In this document: positions 13,505-58,575 of the stretch, piece by piece | How positions within the stretch are numbered: the stretch's first letter is position 1 | Layout of the letters: every line of letters begins with the position of its first letter | Assembly: GCF_004135385.1 (NCBI RefSeq) | Contig: NZ_CP035493.1 | Span: 1,054,001-1,118,000 of the forward strand | Origin: Xylanimonas protaetiae | Lineage (GTDB): Bacteria > Actinomycetota > Actinomycetes > Actinomycetales > Cellulomonadaceae | Length of the DNA stretch: 64,000 nucleotides | Direction of reading: 5' to 3' | The notes under the pieces: generated by a model | Told to the model about the DNA's origin: nothing | The model's database searches: none | What the model saw: only the letters and a program-made list of their open reading frames with translations | Made by a program: the position numbers and the translations under genes

Positions 13505-14119
13505 ATGACCGACAGGGATCCCAAGGAGACACTCCGCCACTACCTCCAGGAAGCCCGCGAGGCCCTCGTCTGGAAGACCGAGGGGCTCTCGGAACGCGAC
13601 CTGCGCATGCCGCGCACCGTGACCGGCACCAACCTGTTGGGGCTCGTCAAGCACTGCACCGCCGTCGAGATCGGCTACCTGGGGCACACCTTCGGGCGGC
13701 CCTTCCCCGCCATCGAGACCGAGGCGCCCTGGGCCCTCTCCTGGGTGGACCCCTCCGTCCCCGAGGTGCTGGAGGAGGACATGTGGGCGACGGAGTCGGA
13801 GCCGGCCGCCCGGCTCGTCGCCCTCTACCGCCGCGTGTGGGCGCACGGCGACGCGACCATCGCCGCGCTCGACCTCGACTCCCCCGGGCGCGTGCCGTGG
13901 TGGGACCCCACACGCGCCGACGTCACGCTCCACCACGTGCTCGTGCACGTCGTCGCCGAGCTCCAGCGGCACGCCGGCCACGCCGACATCCTGCGCGAGG
14001 GCATCGACGGCGCCGCGGGCGTGGCCCAGGGCCGCACCAACCTGTGGACGGCCGAGGAGGACCGGCCCGCCTACGTCGCGCGCCTGCGCGCGCTGGCCGA
14101 GCGCTTCCCCGCGGGCTGA
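13505..14119 (+). CDS. DinB-like / DUF664 family protein
   Basis: A 204-residue four-helix protein of the DinB/DUF664 superfamily. Key visible parts are NLLGLVKHC (His50), DVTLHHVLVHVVAELQRHAGHAD (the His cluster that completes the metal site) and WTAEEDRPAYVARL near the C-terminus. The fold is shared with mycothiol- and bacillithiol-dependent enzymes and often acts as a metal-dependent thiol transferase or isomerase. The substrate here is unknown. It stands alone, divergent from the peptide importer operon, and meets a minus-strand lipoprotein gene end to end (7 bases apart). Confidence 0.8.
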   Translation: MTDRDPKETLRHYLQEAREALVWKTEGLSERDLRMPRTVTGTNLLGLVKHCTAVEIGYLGHTFGRPFPAIETEAPWALSWVDPSVPEVLEEDMWATESEPAARLVALYRRVWAHGDATIAALDLDSPGRVPWWDPTRADVTLHHVLVHVVAELQRHAGHADILREGIDGAAGVAQGRTNLWTAEEDRPAYVARLRALAERFPAG

Positions 14120-14125
14120 CGCGCC

Positions 14126-15207
14126 TCAGCCGGCGGGCAGCACCTGGACGGCGTCACCGAGCACCCACAGCGCGTCGTCGGTGCCGCTGACCAGCGGAGT
14201 CGTCGCGCCGACGGCGATGCGCGCGTCAGGGACGAGCGCATCGTCCCCGAACCTGCCCGTGAGCACCTGGGCGGGAGCGCCGTCGTGCGTGACGACGACG
14301 AACAGCGACCCCCCGGCGATCGTCAGACCCGTCACCGTCCCCTCGCGCCCCAGCGCCAGGTCCGCCAGGTCCGTGCCCCCGGGCTCGCCCACGTCGCCGC
14401 AGCCCTTTCCCCAGGATCGCGCCACAGGGTCGTCGCGCCGTCGGGGCCCACGACGACCGCGGCCGACAGCGTGCCCTCGGCAGCGGCGAGCGGGACGGTG
14501 GTGCCGGCTGCGAGCTCGTCGGTCTCGAGGCGCATCGTCCCGTGGACGATCTTGGCCCCCACCTCGCCCCGGACGGCCACCGAGAAGAACCCGCCGCCCG
14601 CGGCGAGCGCCGTCGGGGTGCGCGTGAGGTGGACGGCCTCGCGCTGGCCCGCCGTCGTCACGCGCAGCACCTCGCCGCCGTCGGGGGTCGCGATCGCCAT
14701 CCACGGGCTCTCGTCGTCGGCGACGAGCCCGACGACGGCCGTCGCGTCCTGCCGCAGGGACAGCGCGAGCGAGCCGCCCGCGCCCAGCTCGCGGAGCACG
14801 GGCGTCTCGCCCTCGAGCCCGGCGACCCAGACGCGCCCCTCGTTCGTCGCGACGGCGGTGGCACGGGTCATCCCCGCGAGCGGGTCGAGCACCTCCAGCC
14901 GTCCCGAGGCGGTGACGATCTGGAGACCGTCCGGGCCGGTCGCCAGCGCCCGGCACGCGTCGACCGCCGTCCACGTGGTCACCGGCCCGGCGGGGGTCGG
15001 GACGGCGGGCCGCTCCGTGGCGCCCTCGGGCACGCACGCCGCGGCAGCCGTGAGGAGGTCCCACCCGTCGAGGACGGGTGCGACGGCGTCCACCTCGGGC
15101 TGCAGCGCCACGGGCTGCGGCCGGGGCGTGCACGCGCTGCTGACCAGCACCACGGGCAGCACCACGAGCAGCGACGCGATCGCGAGGCGAAGGCGGGTGC
15201 GGGACAC
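14126..15207 (-). pseudogene. Secreted lipoprotein, interrupted by a single-base frameshift
   Basis: The GTG at 15207 has GGAG six bases upstream. The N-terminus is a lipoprotein signal ending VSSAC (Cys26). The body has beta-propeller-like content (ATGPDGLQIV, NEGRVWVAGL, DGGEVLRVTT). Reading is continuous to about 14413, then continues in another frame from SWGKGCGDVGEP to LPAG at 14126. Adding one base to the four-C run at 14409-14412 restores an open frame of about 360 residues. Both halves look intact, so a sequencing error is more likely than decay. Function unknown; possibly a surface propeller protein. Confidence 0.7.
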
Positions 15208-15318
15208 GGCGGCTCCTTCGCGCGCAGAGACTCGGGCAGAGTCGTCGCGATGCTCCCGCACCGTCGCACGGGACGCAAGCCCGATACCGGACGTCTCGCC
15301 CCTCGGCGCGAGCGGCCC

Positions 15319-15324
15319 TAGGGT
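15319..15324 (+). promoter_or_regulatory. Candidate -10 box of the RidA gene
   Basis: TAGGGT, 35 bases before the ATG at 15360. The leader holds the ribosome binding site GGAAGG. Confidence 0.35.
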
Positions 15325-15359
15325 GCGAAGCGGAACCGTCTCGTCCGGAAGGTCCAGCC

Positions 15360-15743
15360 ATGATCGAGCGCATCAACCCCCCGTCGCTCTACCAGAGCCC
15401 GGTGTTCTCCCAGGGCACGATCGCCCCCGCCGGTCGCACGCTCTACGTCGGCGGCCAGAACGGCGTCGACGCCGCGGGGACCATGGCGGCCGGGGTGGTC
15501 GCCCAGGTGAAGCAGGCGATCGCCAACGTCCTCGCCGTCCTGGAGTCCGCGGGCGCGACGCCCGACGACGTCGCGAAGCTCACCATCTACCTCGACCATC
15601 GCGTCGACCCGCGCGAGGCCTACGCGGCGTCGGTCGAGGCCTGGGGCGAGCACCGCACGGCCGTGACGGGCGTGATGGTGGCGAGCCTCGCCGTGCCCGG
15701 CGCGCTCGTCGAGATCGAGGCGGTCGCGGCGCTCCAGGAGTAG
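15360..15743 (+). CDS. RidA family protein (enamine/imine deaminase-like)
   Basis: A 127-residue protein of the YjgF/YER057c/UK114 family, matching the usual length of about 125-130. TLYVGGQNGVDAAG and the C-terminal AVPGALVEIEAVAAL are family hallmarks. The residue that is Arg105 in true RidA (normally CR or VR before the last strand) is not present in that form, so it may be an Rid subgroup member without the canonical deaminase activity. RidA proteins hydrolyse reactive enamines from PLP enzymes. The ATG follows GGAAGG with seven bases between. Confidence 0.8.
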   Translation: MIERINPPSLYQSPVFSQGTIAPAGRTLYVGGQNGVDAAGTMAAGVVAQVKQAIANVLAVLESAGATPDDVAKLTIYLDHRVDPREAYAASVEAWGEHRTAVTGVMVASLAVPGALVEIEAVAALQE

Positions 15744-15777
15744 CGCGGACGGGCCGTCACGCCGCGACGACAGGCCC

Positions 15778-16203
15778 TCACGCCACGAAGATGCAGAACG
15801 GGTGCCCTGCCGGGTCGGCGAAGACCCGCAGCGGCTCCTCGGCGTCGCCGGACCGGTCCAGCAGCAGGAAGGCGCCCAGCGCGACCGCGCGCTCGGTCTG
15901 CGCGTCGAGCGTCTCGACGTCGGGCACCGTGGTGTCGAGGTGGAGCTGCTGCGGGATCTCGTCCGACGGCCACGTCGACGGCGGGAGGCTCTCCACCTGC
16001 TGGAACGCGAGCTGGATGCCGCCCGGGTTGCGCAGCACGAGCCAGTCCTTGGTCTCGGGCGCGACGTCGGCGACGTCCGGCTCGGACGGCTCGTCGCCCG
16101 CGCGGTACGTGAGGCCGAACAGGAGGCGGTAGAACTCCGCGAGCACGCGCACGTCCGTGGTGTCGAGCACCACCTGCGCGATCAGCGGGTGCGAGCTGCC
16201 CAT
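15778..16203 (-). CDS. VOC family (glyoxalase/bleomycin resistance-like) protein
   Basis: A 141-residue protein with two vicinal-oxygen-chelate modules: HPLIAQVVLDTTDVRVLAEFYRLLFG at the start and LHLDTTVPDVETLDAQ in the middle. The end, VFADPAGHPFCIFVA, is typical of this subgroup. The ATG at 16203 has GAGAGGT upstream. It is convergent with RidA and divergent from rlmC, which starts 60 bases away. Substrate unknown; single-domain VOC proteins range from dioxygenases to drug-binding proteins. Confidence 0.85.
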   Translation of the reverse strand: MGSSHPLIAQVVLDTTDVRVLAEFYRLLFGLTYRAGDEPSEPDVADVAPETKDWLVLRNPGGIQLAFQQVESLPPSTWPSDEIPQQLHLDTTVPDVETLDAQTERAVALGAFLLLDRSGDAEEPLRVFADPAGHPFCIFVA

Positions 16204-16263
16204 CGGTGTCACCTCTCCGGCGGCCGAGCCTGTCGAGACCAACGTATCGGCGAGAATGGCCGT

Positions 16264-17520
16264 GTGCAGTGCCACCACTACGACGCCGGACGGTGCCGCT
16301 CGTGCACGCTGCTCGAGGTCGCCTACCCCACGCAGGTGACCGACAAGGAGCACCACGTGCGCGAGCTGCTCGACCCGCTCGCCCCCGGCGCGCGGTGGCT
16401 GCCGCCCGTCACGAGCGCCGAGGGCGGGTTCCGCAACAAGGCCAAGATGGTGGTCACGGGCACGGTCGAGGAGCCCGTCATCGGCATCCTCGGGGCGCTG
16501 CCCGCCGACGCCGCACCGACGGGCGTCGACCTCACCGACTGCCCGCTCTACCCGCCCGCGCTCCAGGAGGCGTTCGGCCCGCTGGCCGAGCTCGTCACGC
16601 GCGCCCGGCTCCAGCCGTACGACCTGACGCCCGCGCGCGGCCGGGTCACGCCGCGCGACGCCGCGCGACGCGGCGAGCTCAAGCACCTGCTCGTGACCGT
16701 CTCCCCCGCCGGCGAGCTCATGGTGCGGCTGGTGCTGCGCTCGCAGGAGCCCGTGGCCCGGCTGCGCAAGCACCTCCCCTGGCTCCAGGCGTCGCTGCCC
16801 GCCCTGGCCGTGCTCTCCGTCAACGTCCAGCCCGAGCACAAGGCGGTGCTCGAGGGCGACGTCGAGATCGTGCTCACGGACCGCGAGACGCTGCCCATGA
16901 CGCTCGACGTCCTGCCCGGCGGGCTCACGCTGCACCTGCGCCCGCAGAGCTTCTTCCAGACCAACACCGACGTCGCCGCCGCGCTCTACCGGCAGGCCAA
17001 GGAGTGGGTCGACGCCGTCGCGCCCGCGAGCGTCTGGGACCTGTACAGCGGGGTCGGCGGCTTCGCGCTCACGTGCGCGGCACCGGGACGCCGCGTGACC
17101 GGCATCGAGATCTCCGCCGAGGCGGTGGCGTCCGCGCAGGTCACGCGCGCCGAGCTCGAGGCGACCGACCGCGGGCTCGCCGCGATGACGGGCGTGCGGT
17201 TCGCCGCGGCGGACGCGACGGCCTTCGCGCTCGGCTCCGACCCCGCGGACGTGCCCGAGCTCGTGGTGGTCAACCCGCCGCGGCGCGGCATCGGGCCGGA
17301 GCTCGCGGACTGGCTGGAGGCGGCCCCCGCCGGCGGGAGGAACCCCCGGTCGGCGCGCTGGGTGCTCTACTCGAGCTGCAACGCCGTCACGCTCGCGCAC
17401 GACCTGGAGCGCATGCCGTCGCTGCGGCCCACCCAGGTGCGGCTGCTCGACATGTTCCCGCAGACGCGGCACTACGAGGTGCTCACGCTCCTGGAACGGG
17501 CGCCCCTGGAACGGGCGTAG
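16264..17520 (+). CDS. rlmC: 23S rRNA (uracil(747)-C(5))-methyltransferase RlmC
   Basis: A 418-residue SAM-dependent methyltransferase of the TrmA/RumA/RumB group. The start MQCHHYDAGRCRSC matches RlmC from other bacteria and places three iron-sulphur Cys at 3, 11 and 14, with the fourth at 93 (TDCPLYP). The body has GFRNKAKMVV, QSFFQTN, the SAM motif DLYSGVGGFAL, VVNPPRRGIG and the YSSCN loop with the nucleophile Cys372. The GTG at 16264 has GAGAAT six bases upstream, suggesting a leaderless message. There is no N-terminal TRAM domain, which separates RlmC from RlmD. The last 38 bases overlap the convergent gene at 17483. Confidence 0.93.
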   Translation: MQCHHYDAGRCRSCTLLEVAYPTQVTDKEHHVRELLDPLAPGARWLPPVTSAEGGFRNKAKMVVTGTVEEPVIGILGALPADAAPTGVDLTDCPLYPPALQEAFGPLAELVTRARLQPYDLTPARGRVTPRDAARRGELKHLLVTVSPAGELMVRLVLRSQEPVARLRKHLPWLQASLPALAVLSVNVQPEHKAVLEGDVEIVLTDRETLPMTLDVLPGGLTLHLRPQSFFQTNTDVAAALYRQAKEWVDAVAPASVWDLYSGVGGFALTCAAPGRRVTGIEISAEAVASAQVTRAELEATDRGLAAMTGVRFAAADATAFALGSDPADVPELVVVNPPRRGIGPELADWLEAAPAGGRNPRSARWVLYSSCNAVTLAHDLERMPSLRPTQVRLLDMFPQTRHYEVLTLLERAPLERA

Positions 17521-19096
17521 ACCGCCCGCCGCGCACGGGGACGAGCGCCGCCGTCGCGGGGGCGGGCACCGGCTCGCTCAGCATGAAGGTCACGTCGTGC
17601 GGGTCGCACGTCAGGTCCAGCAGCACCCACGTGCCCGTCGGGACGCCGGGCGTGCCGTGCGCCGGCCACACCAGGACCCCGTCGCGCGGCAGGCCGCGCA
17701 GCACGGGCTCCGCGTTGCCGCGGGTGAGCCTCGTGCCGTCCACCGTGACGGTGAGCTGCTGCGGGCCGTGCACGGTGCACGCCCCCGGGAGCGTGACGAC
17801 GACGGTGCGGGTCGTGGGCGCGGGCGGCGCCGGGATCGGGGTGGGGGCCGGCTCCGGTGGGGCGACGGGAGGGTCCTGCGGCGTCGTGACGGTGGGCGGC
17901 GTGGCTGCAGGTGGCATGACGGCAGGCGGCGCGACGGCAGGCGGCGCGACAGGGGCCTCGGCCGCCGGGGTGTCGGGGGCCGGGGTGTCGGGGGCCGCCG
18001 GCACGACGGCGGGCTGCTGCTCGGCCGGCGGCAGGGCGGACGGCTGGGCGGGGCTCGGCGTCGTCGGGATCGGCGGCGTCTCACGAGGCGTCGTCGGACC
18101 AGGCCTCGTCGGACCAGGCCTCGTCGGACCAGGCGTCGTCGGGACCGGCACAGACGGACCAGGCAGCGACGGCCCGGGCGTCGGGCTCGGCGGCGTCGGC
18201 TGCGGCGAGGTCGGCTGCGACGGCACTGGGCTCGGCTCGGCCACGGCCTCGACGGACCGCGGCGCCGGTGCGGGCGACGCGGCCGGGGCCGCCATCACCG
18301 GCGCGCTCGGTGCGGGCGCGGGCGCGGGCACCGGCGAGGGCGCGCCGCCCGAGAGCACGACCGCCGCCGCGACGCCCGCGACCACGACCACGCTCGCGGC
18401 GGAGCCGCCCACGACGAGCGCCGCCCGCGGCCCTGCGAGGAGCACCTCGCGGACGGCGTCGACCACGCGGTCGCGCAGGGCGGCGAGCCCGGCACCGGCA
18501 CCGGCCAGCGCGAGCACGCCGCCCGCCCCGGCCGCCGGAGCACCCAGGGCGCCTGCGACGACGGGACCGGCCGTGGCCAGCCCGGCGCTGCCGGCCAGCA
18601 GCAGCGGGGCCGCGTCGCGCAGCGCCCACCCGGCCTGTCGCACGTCGATGAAGGCGCGCATGCAGTCCTGGCAGCCGAACAGGTGCGCCTCGAGCACCTG
18701 GCGCGTGCGGGCTGGCAGGCGGTGTCGCACGTAGTCGCCGAGGGCGCCCCGCGTCGTCGTGCACGCGCCCGCCTCCGCCGCGGCGGCGCGCGTGTGCACG
18801 GCGGCGAGCCCGGCAGCCAGGTTGCGCTCGGCCTGGCGCAGGCGGCGCGGCACGGCAGCGAGGGACAGGCCGAGGCTCTTGGCGATGGCCACGTCGTCGG
18901 CGGCGTCGACGTGCTTGAGCCAGAGCAGGCGCTGGTCGTCGTGCGGGAGCGCGGCGAGCGCGGCGCGCACGAGGTCGGGGTCGGCGGTCCCGGGGTCGCC
19001 CGGGGCCAGGCCGGGCGCGAGGGCGCGCATCCGGCCGAGAGCGTCGTCGACCGCACGCACCCCGGTGCGCGCCGGCTCCTGACCCCTCGTGACCAC
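17483..19096 (-). CDS. Sigma region-4-like HTH fused to a zinc anti-sigma motif, membrane helix and Pro-rich stalk
   Basis: A 537-residue chimera from the GTG at 19096 (the frame is open to 19192; GAGGGG lies eight bases before this GTG). Residues about 44-98 resemble sigma-70 region 4: LAALPHDDQRLLWLKHVD, then VAIAKSLGLSLAAVPRRLRQA. A ZAS-type zinc motif HLFGCQDC (His138, Cys142, Cys145) follows, then a hydrophobic Ala-Gly region, a clear membrane helix at about 223-248, roughly 180 residues of Pro-rich repeats, and a small beta-type C-terminal domain with two Cys. No sigma region 2 is present, so it cannot be a working sigma factor. It may be a membrane anti-sigma or surface-sensing regulator. 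It overlaps rlmC convergently. Confidence 0.7.
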   Translation of the reverse strand: MVTRGQEPARTGVRAVDDALGRMRALAPGLAPGDPGTADPDLVRAALAALPHDDQRLLWLKHVDAADDVAIAKSLGLSLAAVPRRLRQAERNLAAGLAAVHTRAAAAEAGACTTTRGALGDYVRHRLPARTRQVLEAHLFGCQDCMRAFIDVRQAGWALRDAAPLLLAGSAGLATAGPVVAGALGAPAAGAGGVLALAGAGAGLAALRDRVVDAVREVLLAGPRAALVVGGSAASVVVVAGVAAAVVLSGGAPSPVPAPAPAPSAPVMAAPAASPAPAPRSVEAVAEPSPVPSQPTSPQPTPPSPTPGPSLPGPSVPVPTTPGPTRPGPTRPGPTTPRETPPIPTTPSPAQPSALPPAEQQPAVVPAAPDTPAPDTPAAEAPVAPPAVAPPAVMPPAATPPTVTTPQDPPVAPPEPAPTPIPAPPAPTTRTVVVTLPGACTVHGPQQLTVTVDGTRLTRGNAEPVLRGLPRDGVLVWPAHGTPGVPTGTWVLLDLTCDPHDVTFMLSEPVPAPATAALVPVRGGRSTPVPGAPVPGA

Positions 19097-19276
19097 CGCG
19101 ACGACCCCTCGACTCCGCGTGCCTCGCACGCACCGGCGACCGGCCCCCCGACCGGTCACGCCGGGGCGTCGACCGCCCCCGCGGCGCCCCATGATGCCAG
19201 CGGCCAGGGTGCAGGGTCCATCGCGCGGACGAGCCGTCCGCCGCGGACACCGGACGACGCACGGGTCCGGGCCCGG

Positions 19277-20353
19277 CTACCGCACCGGCGCCGCCGTGCT
19301 CCCCGGCACGGGCTCCCGGTCGACCGCGGCGACCAGCGAGAACAGGTCCTTGGGGTCGGCGGGCTCGGCGACGAGGTCGAGCCACTGGAGCAGCGGGTCG
19401 GGCGCCCCCGTGGCGAGCAGGTCGTCGTGCACGAACCGCAGCGTGCCCACGTCCTCGACGGCGAACCCGACGGAGTCGAACACCGTGATCTCGTCGTCGG
19501 AGCGGCGCCCCGCGGCGCGGCCCGTCACGACCTGCCAGAGCTCGGTCACCGGGAAGTCGCCGGGCAGGTTCTGGATCTCGCCCTCGACGCGCGTCTGCTC
19601 CTCGTGCTCGACGAAGACCGACGCCCGCCGGAGCGTGGCGGGCTCCAGCTCCGTCTTGCCGGGGCAGTCGCCGCCGATGGCGTTGAGGTGCTGACCGGGC
19701 CGCACGTCGGCGTCGTGCAGCACGGTCGCGTTGCGCTTGTCGGCCGTGCACGTGGTGACGACGTCCGCGCCGCGCGCGGCCTGCGCGGCGTCGGCGCACG
19801 GTTCCACGTGAAACCCGAGCGCGGTGGCGTTCCGGACGAGCTTCGCGGTCGCGGCCGGGTCGACGTCGAACACGCGCACGTGCTCGACGCCGAGCTCCGC
19901 ACGCATGCCCAGGGCCTGGAACTCGGCCTGCGCCCCGGCCCCGATCAGGGCGAGGGTCCGCGCGCCGCGCGGCGCGAGGTAGCGGGCCGCGAGCGCCGAC
20001 GTCGCCGCGGTGCGCAGCGCGGTGAGGATCGTCATCTCCGCGAGGAAGGACGGGTAGCCGTTGTGGACGTCGACGAGCATGCCGAGCGCGGTGACGGTCT
20101 GGTACCCGCGCGACGGGTTGCGCGGGTGGCCGTTGACGAGCTTGAACCCGAACGTGCGGGCGTCGGCGGCGGGCATGAGCTCGATGACGCCGTCGCGGCT
20201 GTGCGAGGCGAGGCGCGGGCGGGTCTCGAGCTCGGGCCAGCGGGCGAAGTCGCGCTCGAGCGCGTCGGTGAGGTCCGCGATGACGGCCTCGGCGCCGCGG
20301 CGGGCGACCCAGCGCGCGGTGGCGGGGACGTCGAGGTACGGGACACGGGTCAT
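19277..20353 (-). CDS. Ornithine cyclodeaminase / mu-crystallin family protein
   Basis: A 358-residue NAD-binding enzyme. The N-terminal half has ELMPAADARTFGFKLVNGHPRNP (substrate pocket), the Rossmann motif is LALIGAGAQAEFQALGM, followed by RVFDVDP, and INAIGGDCPGKTEL-type residues close the site. Ornithine cyclodeaminase converts ornithine to proline and ammonia. The ATG overlaps the stop of the upstream amidinohydrolase gene by four bases (ATGA), so the two are co-translated. The pair probably converts arginine-derived substrate through ornithine to proline. The presence of GGDCPGK favours true ornithine cyclodeaminase over other family members. Confidence 0.88.
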   Translation of the reverse strand: MTRVPYLDVPATARWVARRGAEAVIADLTDALERDFARWPELETRPRLASHSRDGVIELMPAADARTFGFKLVNGHPRNPSRGYQTVTALGMLVDVHNGYPSFLAEMTILTALRTAATSALAARYLAPRGARTLALIGAGAQAEFQALGMRAELGVEHVRVFDVDPAATAKLVRNATALGFHVEPCADAAQAARGADVVTTCTADKRNATVLHDADVRPGQHLNAIGGDCPGKTELEPATLRRASVFVEHEEQTRVEGEIQNLPGDFPVTELWQVVTGRAAGRRSDDEITVFDSVGFAVEDVGTLRFVHDDLLATGAPDPLLQWLDLVAEPADPKDLFSLVAAVDREPVPGSTAAPVR

Positions 20354-21255
20354 GGCGCCTCCCGCGAGGGCCGGAGGACGAGCGTGCAGCACTTGACGGA
20401 GCCGCCGCCCTTGAGGATCTCGTCGATCTCGACGGGGACTGGCTCGAACCCGCGCTCGCGCAGCTTGGCGTGCATGCCGGTCGCGGCCGCGTTGAGGTAG
20501 ACGTGGCGGCCGTCGCTGACGGCGTTGAGGCCCAGCGCGGCGGCGTCGTCCGGGTCGGCGAGGATCGCGTCGGGGAACAGGTCGCGCAGCGTGTCGAGCG
20601 ACTCGCGGGAGAACGCCTCGGGCAGGTAGGCGACGAGCCCGGCGGCGGCGTCGAGCACCGTGAGCGCGGTGTCCAGGTGGTAGTAGCGCGGGTCGACGAG
20701 CTCGAGCGAGACGACGGTGATGCCCTGCTCGGCGAGCCGCAGACGACGGTCCAGCTCGGCGTGCGCGGCCCGCGAGGTGCGGAACCCGGTGCCGGCGAGC
20801 AGCAGGTCGCCGACCAGCAGGATGTCGCCCTCGCCCTCGTTGAGCTCCTCGGCCTGCCCGAGCGAGACGCCGTCGGCGCCGAGGACGCCCGCACGCGCCG
20901 CGGCGTCGAACCACCGCGCGTACGCGGGTCCCTCCGCGTGCCGCTCCGGGTGCAGGAAGCGCGGGGCGAGCGCCCGCCCACCGACGACGAGGCCGCCGTT
21001 GGCGGCGTAGACCATGTCGGGCAGCCCCGGCTCCGGCTCGACGACGTGGACGGTGTGCCCGTGCCGCTCGTACGTCGCGCGCAGCGCCTCCCACTGCGCG
21101 ACGGCGCGCGCGGTGTCCACGGGGACGCCCAGGTCCATCCACGGGTTGATGGCGTACACGACGTCGAAGTACGTGGGCGGGCACATGAGGAAGGTGCACG
21201 GGGTCGCCGTGCGGCCGGGGGCCACCACGTCCGGGAGGGCGAGCTCGATCGTCAT
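20350..21255 (-). CDS. Amidinohydrolase of the DDAH / arginine dihydrolase superfamily
   Basis: A 301-residue protein of the guanidino-modifying fold. Visible motifs: FLMCPPTYFDVVYAINPWMD at the N-terminus, PGLPDMVYAANGGLV, ELVDPRYYHLDTALTVLD with the catalytic His, and the terminal GGGSVKCCTLVLRPS with the nucleophilic Cys. Candidates are dimethylargininase or the ArgZ-type arginine dihydrolase that gives ornithine; the ornithine cyclodeaminase partner favours the second. TACCGT seven bases before the ATG suggests a leaderless message. The promoter region is shared with a divergent Lrp regulator and has phased GTTGC half-sites. Confidence 0.85.
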   Translation of the reverse strand: MTIELALPDVVAPGRTATPCTFLMCPPTYFDVVYAINPWMDLGVPVDTARAVAQWEALRATYERHGHTVHVVEPEPGLPDMVYAANGGLVVGGRALAPRFLHPERHAEGPAYARWFDAAARAGVLGADGVSLGQAEELNEGEGDILLVGDLLLAGTGFRTSRAAHAELDRRLRLAEQGITVVSLELVDPRYYHLDTALTVLDAAAGLVAYLPEAFSRESLDTLRDLFPDAILADPDDAAALGLNAVSDGRHVYLNAAATGMHAKLRERGFEPVPVEIDEILKGGGSVKCCTLVLRPSREAP

Positions 21256-21262
21256 GCGTCCC

Positions 21263-21268
21263 ACGGTA
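21263..21268 (-). promoter_or_regulatory. Leaderless -10 box of the amidinohydrolase-cyclodeaminase operon
   Basis: TACCGT on the minus strand, seven bases before the ATG at 21255. Confidence 0.5.
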
Positions 21269-21278
21269 CGGACGGTGC

Positions 21279-21350
21279 GTTGCACAACAGACCCTCGTTC
21301 GTTGCGCGATCGGCGGCGGTTCGTTGCCTGTCGTCCCTCCGGCGCAACGA
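21279..21350. promoter_or_regulatory. Phased GTTGC half-sites, probable Lrp/AsnC operator
   Basis: GTTGC begins at 21279, 21301 and 21323, exactly 22 bases apart each time, and GCAAC (its complement) is at 21344-21348. The second and third copies extend to TTCGTTGC. Two-helical-turn phasing is what an Lrp octamer wrapping DNA would need. The array fills the gap between the two divergent -10 boxes. Confidence 0.6.
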
Positions 21351-21358
21351 TCCGTTCC

Positions 21359-21364
21359 TATCCT
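21359..21364 (+). promoter_or_regulatory. Leaderless -10 box of the Lrp regulator gene
   Basis: TATCCT, six bases before the GTG at 21371. Confidence 0.55.
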
Positions 21365-21370
21365 GGCCGG

Positions 21371-21820
21371 GTGGACGACCTCAACCGCCTCATCGTCGGC
21401 TACCTGCTGCGCGACGGGCGCGCGACCTTCCAGGAGATCGGCGACGCCGTCGGGCTGTCGGCGCCGGCGGTGAAGCGGCGCGTGGACCTCATGCGGGCGC
21501 GCGGCGAGATCGCGGGGTTCACGGCCGTCGTCGACCCGCACGTGCTCGGCTGGGAGATCGAGGCCTACGTCGAGATCTTCTGCCACGGCAACGTCAGCCC
21601 GGACGCCCTCGCGCGCGACCTCGGCACCATCCCCGAGGTGGTCGAGGTCGCCACGGTGACGGGCGACGCCGACGCGATCGTCCACGTCATGGCCGCGAGC
21701 ATGGCGGGCATCGAGGCGTCGGTCGAGCGCATCCGCGCGAGCGGGCGGGTGGAGCGCACGCGCACGTCCGTGGTGATGTCGCGCGTGATCGACCGGCCGG
21801 CGCGGCCCACGGGCGGGTAG
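21371..21820 (+). CDS. Lrp/AsnC family transcriptional regulator
   Basis: A 149-residue regulator. An N-terminal winged helix-turn-helix (FQEIGDAVGLSAPAVKRRVDLM, residues about 19-40) leads to a RAM ligand-binding domain (GWEIEAYVEIFCHG, VVEVATVTGDADAIVHVMA). The GTG at 21371 is fixed by TATCCT six bases before it and by the family N-terminus DDLNRLIVGYLLRDGR. It is divergent from the amidinohydrolase-cyclodeaminase operon, with a phased half-site array between. The likely role is amino acid-responsive control of that operon and itself, with arginine, ornithine or proline as candidate ligands. Confidence 0.92.
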   Translation: MDDLNRLIVGYLLRDGRATFQEIGDAVGLSAPAVKRRVDLMRARGEIAGFTAVVDPHVLGWEIEAYVEIFCHGNVSPDALARDLGTIPEVVEVATVTGDADAIVHVMAASMAGIEASVERIRASGRVERTRTSVVMSRVIDRPARPTGG

Positions 21821-21841
21821 CCAGGCCCACGGGCGGGTAGC
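21804..21841 (+). repeat. Tandem 20-bp duplication carrying a stop codon and a -10 box
   Basis: An 18-base word (21804-21821) recurs at 21824-21841. The TAG in the first copy is the stop codon of the Lrp gene. The TAG in the second copy begins TAGCGT, the -10 box of the next gene. Confidence 0.75.
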
Positions 21842-21843
21842 GT
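21838..21843 (+). promoter_or_regulatory. Leaderless -10 box of the small membrane protein gene
   Basis: TAGCGT, six bases before the ATG at 21850. Confidence 0.5.
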
Positions 21844-21849
21844 CGGACC

Positions 21850-22404
21850 ATGCCCGACGAGCCGACGACGGACCCGGGTGCCGCCGCGCCGCGGCCCCCG
21901 GCGACCGCGCGCGGTGCGCTCGCGTCGACGCAGCAGCGCGCCGACGCGCTCACCGTGGCGCTGCGCCACGTCCTGTGGCCGGCGCTCGCGATCGTCCTGG
22001 TGATCGGCGCGCAGGCCGCCGTCCAGCTCGCGGCGACCCGGCCCGACGCCGAGGGCGGGCGGCCGAGCCTGGGCATCTTCGTCGTCTACTCGATCATGCT
22101 GCTGGCGATGCTCCCGGTGCTGGTCACCGTGGGTGCGGCCGGATCGACCGCGCTCCTGTCCAAGCAGCCGCTGCCGCCGCGCGCCCTGGCCGTCCTCGCC
22201 GGGGTCGTCACCCTGCTGTGGGTCGGGTGGGTCGCGGGCGGCAGCATCGGCTGGCTCTTCGGCGTCGTGCTCGGCGCCGCCACCGCGGGCGCCGCGACGG
22301 TGCTCGCGGGGCGCTGGGCGCTGCCCCTGCGCCTCCTCGCCGCCGTCGCGGTCGCGGCGCTCGGCGCCGTCGTCGTGCTGTGGGTGGGCGCCGTCGCCTC
22401 CTGA
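21850..22404 (+). CDS. Small polytopic membrane protein, unknown function
   Basis: A 184-residue protein with a 30-residue Ala/Pro-rich cytoplasmic N-terminus and about five hydrophobic segments (ALAIVLVIGAQAAVQLA, LGIFVVYSIMLLAMLPVLVTVG, ALAVLAGVVTLLWVGWVAGG, FGVVLGAATAGAATVLA, LLAAVAVAALGAVVVLWVG). I recognise no family. The start is set by TAGCGT six bases before the ATG. It follows the Lrp gene in the same direction but appears to have its own promoter. Confidence 0.65.
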   Translation: MPDEPTTDPGAAAPRPPATARGALASTQQRADALTVALRHVLWPALAIVLVIGAQAAVQLAATRPDAEGGRPSLGIFVVYSIMLLAMLPVLVTVGAAGSTALLSKQPLPPRALAVLAGVVTLLWVGWVAGGSIGWLFGVVLGAATAGAATVLAGRWALPLRLLAAVAVAALGAVVVLWVGAVAS

Positions 22405-22449
22405 CGCGCCCGGGACCTCGCCCCGACCTCCGGTGGTGAGCCGCCGGAA

Positions 22450-25400
22450 ATGCGCCCAGGATGGCAAGGCGTGGGGCCAGTTGCGGTGCGACGGGACGAC
22501 ACGGGGAGGGTGCGGAGCACCCTCGCGGTGCTCACCGCGCTCACGCTGCTCCTGTGGGTCCTCGCTCCCGGGCAGGGCGGCGACGCGCAGGCCGCGGTCC
22601 CGGAGCCGGCAGCGGACAGCGCCGTCGTCAGCGTCCGCACCGGGGGCGACCGCACGGGCGTCAACGCCGTCGCGGGGCTCCCCGGCGTCGTCCTGCAGCT
22701 CTTCCGCGGCGCGAACGGGGCGAACCCCGTCACCGAGGCATGGGGGACGTGCACGTCCGACGACGACGGCGACTGCTCCTTCCAGGTGCCCGACGCGCAG
22801 CGCGGCGGCGACGGGACATGCACCGCGGCGGACGCGGGAGCCAACTGCGGCGACCGCTTCTGGGTGCGGCAGACCAGCGCCCCCGCGGGATTCTTCGCGA
22901 ACCCGACCCTCAGCACGGGCGCGGTCGGCACCGGACCCAACCCACCGCCCACGACGGCCCTCGCCTACGAGTTCCAGACCCCCGCGGTGTACGCCAGCCA
23001 GACGTCCACGACGGGACAGCCCGGCGGCAGCTCGACGTTCATGGTGTCGCAGGCGCAGAACACGGGGAACGCGTCGAGCGGGATCTGGCAGCAGTCGCGG
23101 GTCGACCCGCCGCTGCCCGAGCAGTGCGGGCTCGACGTCGCGATCATCCTCGACCTGTCGCTGTCGGTGGGTGCCGCGCTGCCCCAGCTCAAGTCGGCCG
23201 CCGACACCTTCGTCGACGCCCTGACGGGCACGCCCTCGCGCATGTCGCTGTTCTCGTTCTCCCGGGTCTCGCCCGCCGCCGGCACGCAGAACGCCACCGC
23301 GCACCACCCCATCTCCCGCACGGCCGACGCCGCCGAGTTCAAGGCGCTCTACGCCGGCTGGGCCCTCGACAACGCGACCAACTGGGACCGCGGCATCGCC
23401 GCCGCGGCCGAGGCGAACGAGCACTACGACGTCGCCGTCGTCATCACCGACGGGAACCCGACGCTCTACAGCGACCCCGCCCAGAACAACGGCACCTACA
23501 CCCGGTTCCGCGAGGTGGAGAACGGCATCTTCTCGGCGAACGCGCTCAAGGCCCAGGGCACCCGCGTGCTCGCCGTCGGCGTCGGCGCGGGCGTCAGCGA
23601 CCCGAACGCGGCGCTCAACCTCCAGGCCATCTCGGGGACGCAGCCCTTCACGGGGGCCAACGCGGAGACCGCCGACTACTACCAGACGGCGGACTTCGCC
23701 GCGGCCGGCGAGGCCCTGCAGAGCCTCGCCTTCTCCAAGTGCATGCCGTCGCTCACGGTGGTCAAGGCGATCGTCCCGCCCGACGGCGGGATCGAGGACG
23801 CGGTGCCCGCCGGCGCGGGGTGGACGTTCACGGCCGACACCGCGGACACCGACGTGCTCCAGGGGCTGCCCGAGACGCTGCCGACCACCGCCGACGGCAC
23901 GGGCGCCGTCAACTTCCCGCTCGCTTTCGGCGTCGACGGCTCCGCGACCGTCACCGTCCACGAGCAGCAGCAGGACGGGTACGAGCTCGTCCCGCAGGGC
24001 GAGGTCAACGCGTCGTGCACCCTGCGGTCCGCGGAGTTCCCCGACGGGACGCCGCTCGAGGTGGCGAACGACGGCACGGACCCGGCGAGCCCCGGGTTCT
24101 CCTTCACGATGGGCTCCGCCACGGGCGTGAGCTGCGTCGTCTACAACCGGGCGCCGACGCCGCCCGCGACCCTCACGGTGAGCAAGACGTGGGTCGTCGA
24201 CGGCGTCGCGTACCCCGACGGAGAGCAGCCGCCCGAGATCGACGCCGACCTGTGGGTCGACCCGCCCGACGGCGACCCGGCCCCGGCCGACGGCTGGGGC
24301 GCCGGCCACCAGTTCTTCCAGGGCGACACCGTGGGGCTCGCGGAGTCGGTGTCGTTCGGGTCGCGGGACCTGTGCGAGCTCGTGGGTGCGACCGTGACCG
24401 TCGACGGCGCTCCGCCGCCCGTGCCCTTCCCGGCGGCCATGCGCGACCCGGCCGACCCCGACGCCCCACCCGCCGTGGACGGCTTCTTCGACGTCGCCCT
24501 CACGGCGCCGACGACGACGGTCGAGGTCACCAACACCGTGACCTGCCGGACGCTGCTCACCCTGACCAAGATCGTCCTCGGCGGCGGCACCGCGAACCCG
24601 ATGTCGTGGACGCTGTCCGCCGCCGGGCCCGACGGCAGCGGGCCGAGCGGGCCGTCCACCGCGCCCGAGGTGACCGACGTCGAGGTGACGGCCGGCGCGC
24701 CGTACGTGCTCGCCGAGGCCGGCGGCGACCCGCGCTACGCCCAGACCGACCTGCGGAGCACCGTCACGCAGTACCCGGGCGCGTCCGGCTCGGCGTACTG
24801 CCGCACCGTCGCCGCCGACGACTCCTTCGTCTCCGACGTCGTCGACGGGCTCGACGGCGGGGTGCTGCCGCAACTCGGGCAGCGCACCCGGTGCGAGTTC
24901 CTGAACCTCACCGCGACGCTGAGCCTGCGCAAGGTCGTCGAGAACGCCGACGGCGAGCCCGACCCGCCGTCCGCCTGGTCGCTCACCGCGACCCCGGTCG
25001 GGGACGACCTGCCCGCGGGGCTCGGTCCCGTGACCGTCACCGGCACGGCCGCCGGGCTCGGGGCGCGCTTCCTCGTGCGGCCCGGCGTCACCTACGAGCT
25101 CACCGAGACCGCGCCGCCCGACGCCCTCGCGGGGTACACGCTGGCCGACGTCCGGTGCGGCGCGGGGCCGGTCCCGCGCGCCGCCGAGCCGGTGACCGTC
25201 CAGGTCGACCCGCTCGCCGGGGTGCTCTGCACGTTCCGCAACGTCGCCGACCCGTCGTCGTGGACGGTCGCGAAGTCGAGCGACCCCGCCACGGGCTCGA
25301 CCGTGCAGCCCGGCGACGTCATCACCTACACGATCACCGCGACCGACCTCGGCGGCGGCGCGGAGCGCCCGCACGACCTCACGGTCACCGACGACCTCGC

Positions 25401-25836
25401 GGGCGTCCTGGACGACGCGACGCTCGACGCGGGCAGCATCAGCCCGAGCACCGGGACCGCGTCCGTGACCGGCGCGTCGCTCACCTGGAGCATCCCCCTG
25501 CTCGACGGCACCGCGACGCTCACCTACCGGGTGGTGGTCGACGACGACGCCTACGCCGCCACGCTCACGAACGTCGTCACCGGGGGCGGCGTGCAGCCCT
25601 GCCCCGCCGCCGAGCCCGACTGCCGGACGACGACGCAGGTGACGCCGCCCGAGCCGGTGGACCCGACGCCCACGCCCGTCCCGCCGCCGGTCTCGCCGCC
25701 GGGAGCCGTGCCGCCGTCGGGCGGTCTGCCCCGGACGGGAGCCGAGATCGGCCTGACGGCGCTGACCGCGGCACTGCTCGTCGGGCTGGGGGCCGCCGTG
25801 CGCGCGCTGCGGCGGCGGCCCGGGGACAAGCACTGA
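22450..25836 (+). CDS. Sortase-anchored surface protein with von Willebrand A domain
   Basis: A 1128-residue secreted protein. A signal peptide (STLAVLTALTLLLWVLAPG, cut near AQAA) precedes an N-terminal beta domain. A vWA domain from about residue 228 has the MIDAS start DLSLS and the second motif ITDGNP. Several prealbumin/SpaA-like domains follow (TLTKIVLGGGTANP, TLSLRKVVENADGEP), then one DUF11-like domain (WTVAKSSDPATGSTVQPGDV) and a Pro-rich stalk. The sorting signal is LPRTG near 1093, then a membrane helix and Arg-rich tail. The plan resembles pilin-tip adhesins. The start could be the ATG at 22450 or the GTG at 22471, which has CAGGAT eight bases upstream. No sortase is in the window. 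Confidence 0.85.
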   Translation: MRPGWQGVGPVAVRRDDTGRVRSTLAVLTALTLLLWVLAPGQGGDAQAAVPEPAADSAVVSVRTGGDRTGVNAVAGLPGVVLQLFRGANGANPVTEAWGTCTSDDDGDCSFQVPDAQRGGDGTCTAADAGANCGDRFWVRQTSAPAGFFANPTLSTGAVGTGPNPPPTTALAYEFQTPAVYASQTSTTGQPGGSSTFMVSQAQNTGNASSGIWQQSRVDPPLPEQCGLDVAIILDLSLSVGAALPQLKSAADTFVDALTGTPSRMSLFSFSRVSPAAGTQNATAHHPISRTADAAEFKALYAGWALDNATNWDRGIAAAAEANEHYDVAVVITDGNPTLYSDPAQNNGTYTRFREVENGIFSANALKAQGTRVLAVGVGAGVSDPNAALNLQAISGTQPFTGANAETADYYQTADFAAAGEALQSLAFSKCMPSLTVVKAIVPPDGGIEDAVPAGAGWTFTADTADTDVLQGLPETLPTTADGTGAVNFPLAFGVDGSATVTVHEQQQDGYELVPQGEVNASCTLRSAEFPDGTPLEVANDGTDPASPGFSFTMGSATGVSCVVYNRAPTPPATLTVSKTWVVDGVAYPDGEQPPEIDADLWVDPPDGDPAPADGWGAGHQFFQGDTVGLAESVSFGSRDLCELVGATVTVDGAPPPVPFPAAMRDPADPDAPPAVDGFFDVALTAPTTTVEVTNTVTCRTLLTLTKIVLGGGTANPMSWTLSAAGPDGSGPSGPSTAPEVTDVEVTAGAPYVLAEAGGDPRYAQTDLRSTVTQYPGASGSAYCRTVAADDSFVSDVVDGLDGGVLPQLGQRTRCEFLNLTATLSLRKVVENADGEPDPPSAWSLTATPVGDDLPAGLGPVTVTGTAAGLGARFLVRPGVTYELTETAPPDALAGYTLADVRCGAGPVPRAAEPVTVQVDPLAGVLCTFRNVADPSSWTVAKSSDPATGSTVQPGDVITYTITATDLGGGAERPHDLTVTDDLAGVLDDATLDAGSISPSTGTASVTGASLTWSIPLLDGTATLTYRVVVDDDAYAATLTNVVTGGGVQPCPAAEPDCRTTTQVTPPEPVDPTPTPVPPPVSPPGAVPPSGGLPRTGAEIGLTALTAALLVGLGAAVRALRRRPGDKH

Positions 25837-57975: not shown

Positions 57976-58575
57976 ATGAACGACTTGTGGGCGGAACTGC
58001 TGCCCCAACCCCGACCTGGGCAGTCCGCGGACGATCGTGTGACGGAGTGGTGGCGCGACCATGCCGGCCGAGTCCAGGCATACGCCCTGCGGCACGTCGA
58101 CCCGCACTCCGCGCAGGAGGTCGTCGCCGAGACGTTCCTCATCGCCTGGCGGCGTGACTCTGACGTCCCGGGCGACGTCCTGCCCTGGCTCTTTGGCGTC
58201 GCGCGCAACGTGATCCGCAACCAACGCCGCGCCGCGCGGCGCGCGGAGGCACTCGTGCAACGTCTCGCATACGTGACAGTGCAGGACCGCGAAGACCCGT
58301 CCGCTGACGTCGCGGTCACCGCGCGCGAGGAGATGCTCCTCGCCCTCGCTCAGCTCACCGACTCGCACCGGGAAGCGCTGCTCCTCATCGCGTGGGACGG
58401 ACTGACCCGCGAGCAGGCGGCCGAGGTTGCCGGCTGCCGGGTCGGGACGTTCGACGTGCGCCTCTCGAGAGCCCGCAAACGTCTAGCCGAGCTGCTCGCC
58501 GACGCTGGCCACAACCCGGCTCCGACCCGCCGCCTGATGGTCGTTGAGCCCGTACGTCCTGGAGGAACACGATGA
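57976..58575 (+). CDS. ECF-type RNA polymerase sigma factor
   Basis: A 199-residue sigma factor. Region 2 is FLIAWRRDSDVPGDVLPWLFGVARNVIRNQRRA and region 4 is LALAQLTDSHREALLLIAWDGLTREQAAEVAGCRVGTFDVRLSRARKRL. The ATG at 57976 has AGATCCAGG upstream, a weak ribosome binding site. Its TGA overlaps the ATG of the next gene by four bases. The downstream membrane protein is probably its anti-sigma factor, giving a stress-responsive pair. Confidence 0.9.
   Translation: MNDLWAELLPQPRPGQSADDRVTEWWRDHAGRVQAYALRHVDPHSAQEVVAETFLIAWRRDSDVPGDVLPWLFGVARNVIRNQRRAARRAEALVQRLAYVTVQDREDPSADVAVTAREEMLLALAQLTDSHREALLLIAWDGLTREQAAEVAGCRVGTFDVRLSRARKRLAELLADAGHNPAPTRRLMVVEPVRPGGTR

Follow-up and report, generated by a model that had tools for sequence, protein, structure and literature searches.

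A membrane-bound fusion of sigma region 4 and a zinc anti-sigma domain in Xylanimonas protaetiae, and the apparent loss of sigma region 2 in its ancestry

The extracytoplasmic function (ECF) sigma factors of group ECF52, such as SCO4117 of Streptomyces coelicolor, combine a sigma factor, a zinc finger, a membrane helix, a Pro-rich tail and an outer domain in a single protein (accessible parts of PMC5826349 and PMC8999054), and proteolytic activation is expected for the groups ECF48, ECF52 and ECF53 (accessible parts of PMC8999054). The gene described here lies in a stretch of 64,000 nucleotides of Xylanimonas protaetiae (NCBI RefSeq assembly GCF_004135385.1, contig NZ_CP035493.1, positions 1,054,001 to 1,118,000 of the forward strand), referred to at its full length as the window. 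Its product has the sigma region 4 (sigma4), the zinc anti-sigma domain (ZAS), the membrane helix and the Pro-rich extension of such proteins and lacks region 2. The domain layout is already known from the ECF52-type sigma factors, while the loss of region 2 appears to be new. Well supported by the analysis are the make-up of the protein and its want of region 2, the branching order of the clades, the action of purifying selection on both sigma4 and ZAS, and the switch of residues at the contact between these two domains. The gene family is probably a signalling switch or a decoy and not a working sigma factor.

The gene and the parts of its product are the following.

17483..19096, minus strand: whole gene, 537 codons plus stop, with a GTG start at 19096
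18983..19096, minus strand: N-terminal 38 residues; one short helix at model residues 15-26, of low confidence
18779..18982, minus strand: sigma region 4-like helix-turn-helix, residues 39-106, from Pfam, profile and fold matches
18614..18763, minus strand: zinc anti-sigma domain (zf-HC2/ZAS), residues 112-161, with the ligands C112, H138, C142 and C145
18356..18412, minus strand: predicted transmembrane segment, residues 229-247, with a Kyte-Doolittle peak of 2.19
17810..18340, minus strand: Pro-rich stalk, about residues 253-429, recognised by composition; fast evolving
17528..17809, minus strand: small beta-rich outer domain, residues 430-523, from AlphaFold strands (predicted local distance difference test, pLDDT, 75-88 in blocks 431-520); fast evolving

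In the window protein, the Pfam match to zf-HC2 exceeds the cut-off, with an expectation value (E) of 1.0e-7, and that to Sigma70_r4_2 (E 3.5e-5) is, at 23.8 bits, slightly under the cut-off of 25.7. The latter score, though weak, is not a chance one, because 15 of the 16 scanned members of class A, the clade of the window gene, match Sigma70_r4_2 (E ≤ 1; best 1.9e-7). All 16 match zf-HC2 (E ≤ 1; best 7e-8). The motif H-x3-C-x2-C is present, C112 is the invariant fourth ligand, and C112, H138, C142 and C145 are found in all 25 class A rows of the alignment. Moreover, a family profile of classes A and B (defined below) matches both chains of the structure 3HUG, namely region 4 of SigL (E 0.0011) and the anti-sigma factor RslA (3hug_B; E 0.026). 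The AlphaFold model is poor overall (mean pLDDT 62; predicted template modelling score 0.31), with good confidence in sigma4 (blocks of 81-95) and fair confidence in ZAS (66-84). Foldseek with this model gave no match at E ≤ 0.001; its top matches are sigma region 4 domains, the best being 3hug_A (E 4.3e-3, probability 1.00), and the sigma4 model fits 3hug_K with a Z of 10.8 and a root mean square deviation (rmsd) of 3.0 over 71 aligned positions.

Hydropathy marks residues 229-247 as the sole strong segment, together with two weaker ones at 163-197, and Pro accounts for 59 of the 154 residues in 277-430. For the outer domain, the 16 class A members have no Pfam family in common and none that is carbohydrate-binding among those listed at E ≤ 1; no identity was found for its fold, the VIA and Foldseek lists for the window model being taken up by sigma4 and hence barely a test. 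An earlier note on this DNA, drawn up from the letters alone, had proposed a region 4-like helix-turn-helix, a zinc anti-sigma motif, a membrane helix, a Pro-rich stalk and a small outer domain in one chain, and had expected structure prediction to return the sigma4 and zinc anti-sigma folds; all of these parts were recovered.

Region 2 is absent from the chain and from its surroundings. Sigma70_r2 has no match at E ≤ 1 in any of the 16 scanned class A members. None of the 23 region 2 matches of a six-frame search of the whole genome lies at the locus, and the same genome's searches for region 4 (39 matches) and zf-HC2 (7 matches) did match the window gene. No separate region 2 frame was found by profile search at E ≤ 1 in positions 14001-24000 of the window, nor in 23 class A loci from 18 genomes; the same search recovered four of four positive controls. 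Region 2 occupies 71 Pfam positions, or about 210 bp, and therefore has no room in the 180-bp gap (19097-19276) between the gene and the stop of its upstream neighbour, ocd; both the absence and the want of room had been claimed in the note. A region 2 hidden by an alternative start or a frameshift was considered as well and rejected: there are 60 extra residues in frame upstream, and a Pfam scan of this extended reading frame and the six-frame and local profile searches were negative. A ribosome-binding-like stretch, GAGGGG, lies 8 nt 5' of the GTG at 19096, and in most class A relatives a start codon falls at the corresponding position.

The N-terminal 38 residues may be a last remnant of region 2; profile comparisons of the class A N-terminus with the last region 2 helix were not significant, with P 0.064 (18 columns, against the degenerate N-termini discussed below) and 0.38. 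Two full-length proteins in the same genome (1418718 and 2078349) carry region 2, region 4 and zf-HC2 in one chain. Of the features that define an ECF sigma factor (group IV), the window protein has region 4 and not region 2; of those that define ECF52, it has the C-terminal zinc finger and, judged by hydropathy and composition, the membrane helix and the Pro-rich extension, and not the region 2 in the chain. Since region 2 is part of both definitions, the protein falls outside ECF52 and the ECF sigma factors and is instead derived from such proteins.

A sigma4 that is under selection without region 2 might be one half of a split sigma factor in the manner of SigO and RsoA, with region 2 supplied by another protein. 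This is very improbable. In the genome, three of the 23 region 2 matches have no PF08281 region 4 nearby, and their frames measure 645, 262 and 115 aa. By their length, the two longer ones may be other types of sigma-70. The third, an open reading frame of 115 codons (L055:2560-2904; 3378059-3378403 of the genome), is the sole small one with region 2 only. In its relatives, which are frames of 390-579 aa, the matches to its two ends are separated by about 670-780 bp, so that it is the remnant of an internally deleted sigma factor, and it has no match in G001 or G027, both of which carry the sigma4 gene. The 23 class A loci searched likewise gave no separate region 2 frame at E ≤ 1. All relatives found have region 2 in the same chain, a degenerate segment in its place, or none, and homologues with a separate region 2, against which the note had set its proposal, did not come to light.

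Matches at E ≤ 0.001 occur in seven of the eleven genomes of the genus, the present one included. At least 157 of 200 genomes of the family match, full-length fused sigma factors included, as do at least 55 genomes in the search of the order and at least 75 in that of the taxonomic class; these three tallies are lower bounds, as no more than 12 candidates per genome were scored for the family and no more than 6 for the order and the taxonomic class. A scan of named genomes yielded 29 loci in Xylanimonas, Isoptericola, Krasilnikoviella, Promicromonospora and Antribacter and in metagenome bins. Class A (the own genus, Xylanimonas, Isoptericola and Krasilnikoviella) is without region 2 and has about 38 residues ahead of region 4. 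Classes B and C (Promicromonospora, Antribacter and others, several of them in tandem) have about 95 or more residues there, and the full-length layout has a canonical region 2. A profile of canonical region 2 matched all 21 full-length frames at E ≤ 1.6e-5, although one of these, L113, had itself entered the profile as a row; in the same run it matched none of five derived or region 2-less frames at E ≤ 10. Inspection for region 2 covered 24 loci of the order (L110-L133) and 28 of the taxonomic class (L142-L169), and all 28 of the latter have the canonical form. One full-length fused ECF protein of another family (L122:868-2706 of G293, also present as L173) has a poor region 2 score (E 1.6e-5) and no Pfam region 2 at E ≤ 0.1; here, too, region 2 may be decaying.

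The N-termini of classes B and C are regarded as a putative degenerate region 2 because of their position, their register and order in the alignment, the three predicted helices and the two-domain fold matches, the profile that assigned the label having itself been built from 15 of these N-termini. Pfam found no Sigma70_r2 at E ≤ 1 among the 18 members of one alignment, 13 of which belong to classes B and C. The AlphaFold model of a class C protein (mean pLDDT 83) has three helices ahead of region 4. Its top Foldseek matches are sigma factors, many of them over about 160 columns, and its VIA alignments span residues 2-170 in the same domain order.

A tree was built from 74 sigma4-ZAS rows and 121 columns (L091_p2, L074_p3865 and L072_p4716 included), that is, from few columns and with long branches. 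On one side stand 28 rows in which region 2 is canonical, joined by a single independent row that lacks it. The other, derived side has 45 rows, a support of 100/100, and the degenerate rows at its base; it is found in Promicromonosporaceae. Nested in the derived side is class A (25 rows, no region 2; 100/98), the sister of class B (11 rows; 100/99). Many of the inner forks are weak, because only 121 columns were kept, but the splits defining the derived side, class A and class B are not.

The genes next to the locus, two of which bear on this order, are these.

16237..17520, plus strand: rlmC, 23S rRNA (uracil747-C5)-methyltransferase (NCBIfam E 3.9e-188); convergent, conserved neighbour; 16237 is where the scanned stretch begins, not a checked start codon
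19277..20350, minus strand: ocd, ornithine cyclodeaminase (NCBIfam E 7.9e-152); upstream, on the strand of the gene
20350..21252, minus strand: ddaH, dimethylargininase (NCBIfam E 7.9e-118); same strand, beyond ocd

The 3' end of the window gene overlaps the convergent rlmC by 38 bp. Of the 15 named class A loci, 14 have a convergent rlmC downstream (at ≤ 55 bp in nine and at 1.7-2.3 kb in five), the contig of the fifteenth stopping 63 bp on; so do ten of the eleven class B loci, where it overlaps or is within 105 bp, the eleventh being at a contig end. In contrast, an upstream ocd is seen in class A (13 of the 15 named loci) and is missing from all eleven class B loci. The search for the same architecture and its gene neighbours that the note had suggested thus returned relatives in classes A and B with a shared location, and this location agrees with the order of the tree. 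The simplest reading is that region 2 had already degenerated when the ancestor of class A lost it, and that this loss happened once. The lineage most likely descends from an ECF52-like protein of actinobacteria, an ECF sigma factor carrying in its own chain a zinc anti-sigma domain, a membrane helix and a Pro-rich tail; its region 2 would have degenerated before the clade of the window gene arose and later been lost entirely.

Other reduced forms were also seen. A second, independent kind of region 2-less sigma4-ZAS protein (L170:2044-2532, 163 aa; L074:3865-4413, 183 aa) occurs in two other genera, where the genes directly adjoin full-length fused ECF sigma factors. Promicromonospora has ZAS-only frames of the same family, of 134-145 aa (L101:4447-4848, L102:4355-4756 and L103:5743-6177), in which no sigma4 was seen, the Pfam scan covering that of L101. 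A class B copy (L072:4716-5426, a frame of 237 aa) has kept the degenerate N-terminus and ZAS and lost sigma4 and the tail.

The derived proteins also differ from their full-length relatives at the contact of sigma4 with ZAS, in two residues of the window protein.

18911..18913, minus strand: His62, which is Glu in 26 of 28 full-length relatives
18827..18829, minus strand: Glu90, which is Arg in 28 of 28 full-length relatives

Columns were compared between 43 derived and 28 canonical rows, excluding L091_p2 (at a contig edge), L074_p3865 (independent, on a long branch) and L072_p4716 (sigma4 deleted). E62H and R90E are the only columns that are at least 90% conserved in both groups with a differing residue; L85R joins them at 85%, and L98A and L152V as well at 80%. 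Glu90 occurs in all 25 class A rows and in 18 of 19 degenerate rows, and Arg in all canonical rows. In 30 further canonical rows (28 loci from across the taxonomic class and two from the own family; a 31st, L173, repeats L122), position 90 is Arg in 29 and Lys in one, and His62 is found in none. The independent region 2-less protein of L170 retains E62 and R90. The recognition helix is basic in class A (R84 in 22, R85 in 20 and R87 in 19 of 25 rows).

Positions 62 and 90 would correspond, in an alignment made by hand, to position 150 and R178 of Escherichia coli sigmaE. Position 150 of sigmaE is among the contacts common to four sigma/anti-sigma structures, while R178 co-varies with D11 in helix 1 of the anti-sigma factor and also contacts the -35 element, so far as the accessible parts of PMC7406223 describe them. 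On this hand alignment, E62H and R90E both fall on contact positions published there. Residue 124 of ZAS, placed opposite D11 of RseA by hand, is Arg or Lys in 37 of 44 derived rows (36 of them together with Glu90; L091_p2 and L074_p3865, which are also outside the class A residue counts, excluded) and Arg in 24 of the 28 canonical rows. R90E thus makes possible a Glu-Arg/Lys pair, the reverse of the usual Arg-Asp pair; the change is a single evolutionary event.

The same residues may be read in favour of a sigma mimic or decoy of the PhyR type, in which the sigma-like part would bind anti-sigma domains in trans, such as the ZAS of full-length fused paralogues, and tune them from the membrane. 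The sigma-like domain of PhyR, whose promoter- and core-binding regions are degenerate, titrates an anti-sigma factor (accessible parts of PMC8103513). Glu90 would be complementary to Arg124, which 24 of 28 canonical ZAS domains have at the contact position of helix 1 and to which canonical sigma4 offers an Arg, and the genome itself encodes two full-length fused paralogues. These paralogues, however, are candidate partners only, and the protein's own ZAS would be met first; moreover, the pairing depends on the placement of position 124 by hand, and one substitution on one branch is a single event. Taken alone the decoy is somewhat unlikely, and it ranks just behind the reading as a tethered sigma4 set out below, being nearly as likely; the trans-acting anti-sigma factor, the vestige and the split sigma factor follow in that order.

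At the 85% level, nine of the fourteen positions conserved only in the derived group are in the ZAS end (147-160). This clustering would suit a trans-acting anti-sigma factor, in which the attached sigma4 is a built-in plug and the newly conserved region of ZAS helix 3 captures another ECF sigma factor, and the class I anti-sigma factors are described as binding sigma region 2 through helix 4 (accessible parts of PMC7406223). Such a function is nevertheless unlikely: sigma4, being covalently attached, would be expected to compete for that pocket, the locus has no ECF gene beside it (its neighbours are rlmC, ocd and ddaH), and the profile search found no region 2 frame in positions 14001-24000.

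The ratios of nonsynonymous to synonymous substitution (dN/dS) were computed by script, after Nei and Gojobori, for pairs of main copies, eight from class A and two from class B. They are 0.07-0.37 in sigma4 and 0.07-0.39 in ZAS, as against 0.22-0.77 in the stalk and 0.25-1.06 in the outer domain. The membrane region has 0.18-0.60, which in some pairs is no higher than the value of sigma4 or ZAS. Given these low values relative to the stalk and outer domain, sigma4 and ZAS are maintained under purifying selection. The possibility of a pseudogene was discarded on the same values. Tandem second copies of class A are present at L062 and L063 (G112 and G148).

It might still be argued that the gene is a vestige, a former sigma factor whose remaining domains are decaying. 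The gene is missing from one congener and broken in another (G003 and G001, see below), the pair of tandem second copies is more relaxed (0.45 in sigma4 and 0.42 in ZAS), and the second gene of L072 is without sigma4. Against this, few parts of the main copies are as constrained as sigma4 and ZAS, the zinc ligands are invariant throughout class A, new residues have been fixed, and the location near rlmC has been kept in several genera. A vestige is therefore rather improbable.

The reading that we favour, tentatively and at less than an even chance when history and mechanism are taken together, is that of an ECF52-like descendant which is now a membrane-tethered sigma4 regulator with a built-in ZAS lid; the history alone is much surer. 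Having lost region 2, the protein alone should not melt promoters and is therefore no sigma factor by itself. In the resting state, ZAS would clamp the attached sigma4 at the membrane. A signal acting on the outer domain or the stalk would loosen the clamp, perhaps by intramembrane proteolysis as proposed for ECF52, and the freed sigma4 might then bind -35-like DNA, the RNA polymerase flap or both, altering other holoenzymes. Control of the attached region 4 by the anti-sigma part, which the note had also suggested, is plausible and fits the changes at the interface.

Several observations weigh against this reading. The comparison of the degenerate N-termini with the canonical region 2 profile (hhalign) was not significant (probability 1.2%, P 0.046). 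The class C model has only one Foldseek match at E ≤ 0.001, with TM-scores of about 0.3 and a high rmsd, and helical folds easily reach a middling Z. R178, with which Glu90 is aligned, contacts the -35 element, so that DNA binding may be weakened, which favours the decoy. The pair corresponding to R178 and D11 is charged or hydrophobic across ECF sigma factors at large, SigL having a Val. Finally, the gene is dispensable, as indicated by its absence in G003 and its broken frame in G001. Four of the eleven congeners (G003, G007, G008 and G009) have no match at E ≤ 0.001; G003 is near-complete, and in it ocd and rlmC abut, while the completeness of the others is 93% (G007), 65% (G008) and 72% (G009). 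In G001, the frame is broken after ZAS, either by a real frameshift or by an assembly error.

It may be, though we would not yet call it probable, that selection has converted a sigma lineage, step by step, into a signalling protein of the membrane which is no longer a sigma factor, be it a sigma mimic or a tethered sigma4 regulator, and in which the contact was rebuilt with swapped polarity, a Glu of sigma4 facing an Arg or Lys of ZAS. The family offers a graded natural series of region 2, from intact through degenerate to lost, for the way in which an initiation factor can turn into a different kind of protein with selection still acting on its DNA-binding and inhibitor domains. E62H and R90E define a small interface that can be tested. 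Surveys that demand both region 2 and region 4 would overlook such proteins, and annotation as sigma factors would mislead for those without region 2.

Two other genes of the window may be mentioned. A frame of 1128 aa near the locus (22450-25836, plus strand) encodes a long, secreted-looking surface protein, and at 58054-58485, on the plus strand, regions 2 and 4 of another, ECF-like sigma factor lie in a frame of 209 aa.

No description of a region 2-less fused sigma4-ZAS family was found in the literature as represented by titles and abstract openings, with subscription journals mostly outside the coverage. The note's belief that no characterised protein has this design does not hold for the overall layout, which is published for ECF52, and stands for the missing region 2. 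With ECF52, ECF53 and ECF48, as the accessible parts of PMC5826349 and PMC8999054 portray them, the window protein shares region 4, ZAS, a membrane helix, a Pro-rich stretch and an outer part in one chain. It differs from them in the loss of region 2 and in the switched residues E62H and R90E; for the outer domain, Pfam listed no carbohydrate-binding family at E ≤ 1 in the 16 class A members. The full-length relatives found here have the region 4/ZAS profile in common with the window family. IutY of Pseudomonas putida (ECF243) likewise has a sigma factor and a membrane anti-sigma factor in one chain and is activated through regulated proteolysis (accessible parts of PMC8999054), but it is a complete sigma factor of another group.

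The two halves of the window protein match the two chains of the complex of SigL region 4 and RslA of Mycobacterium tuberculosis (PDB 3HUG); there, however, sigma4 and the anti-sigma factor are separate proteins, and full-length SigL (6dv9_F, 177 residues) extends beyond region 4. In SigO and RsoA of Bacillus subtilis, a sigma4 protein also has no region 2 in the same chain, but SigO has RsoA as its region 2 partner, whereas none was found for the window protein in the genome or in the 23 class A loci. PhyR, which acts with NepR in alphaproteobacteria, is likewise a sigma-like protein unable to initiate transcription (for both systems, accessible parts of PMC8103513). In contrast to the window protein, with its membrane anchor and a ZAS of its own, PhyR is a response regulator.

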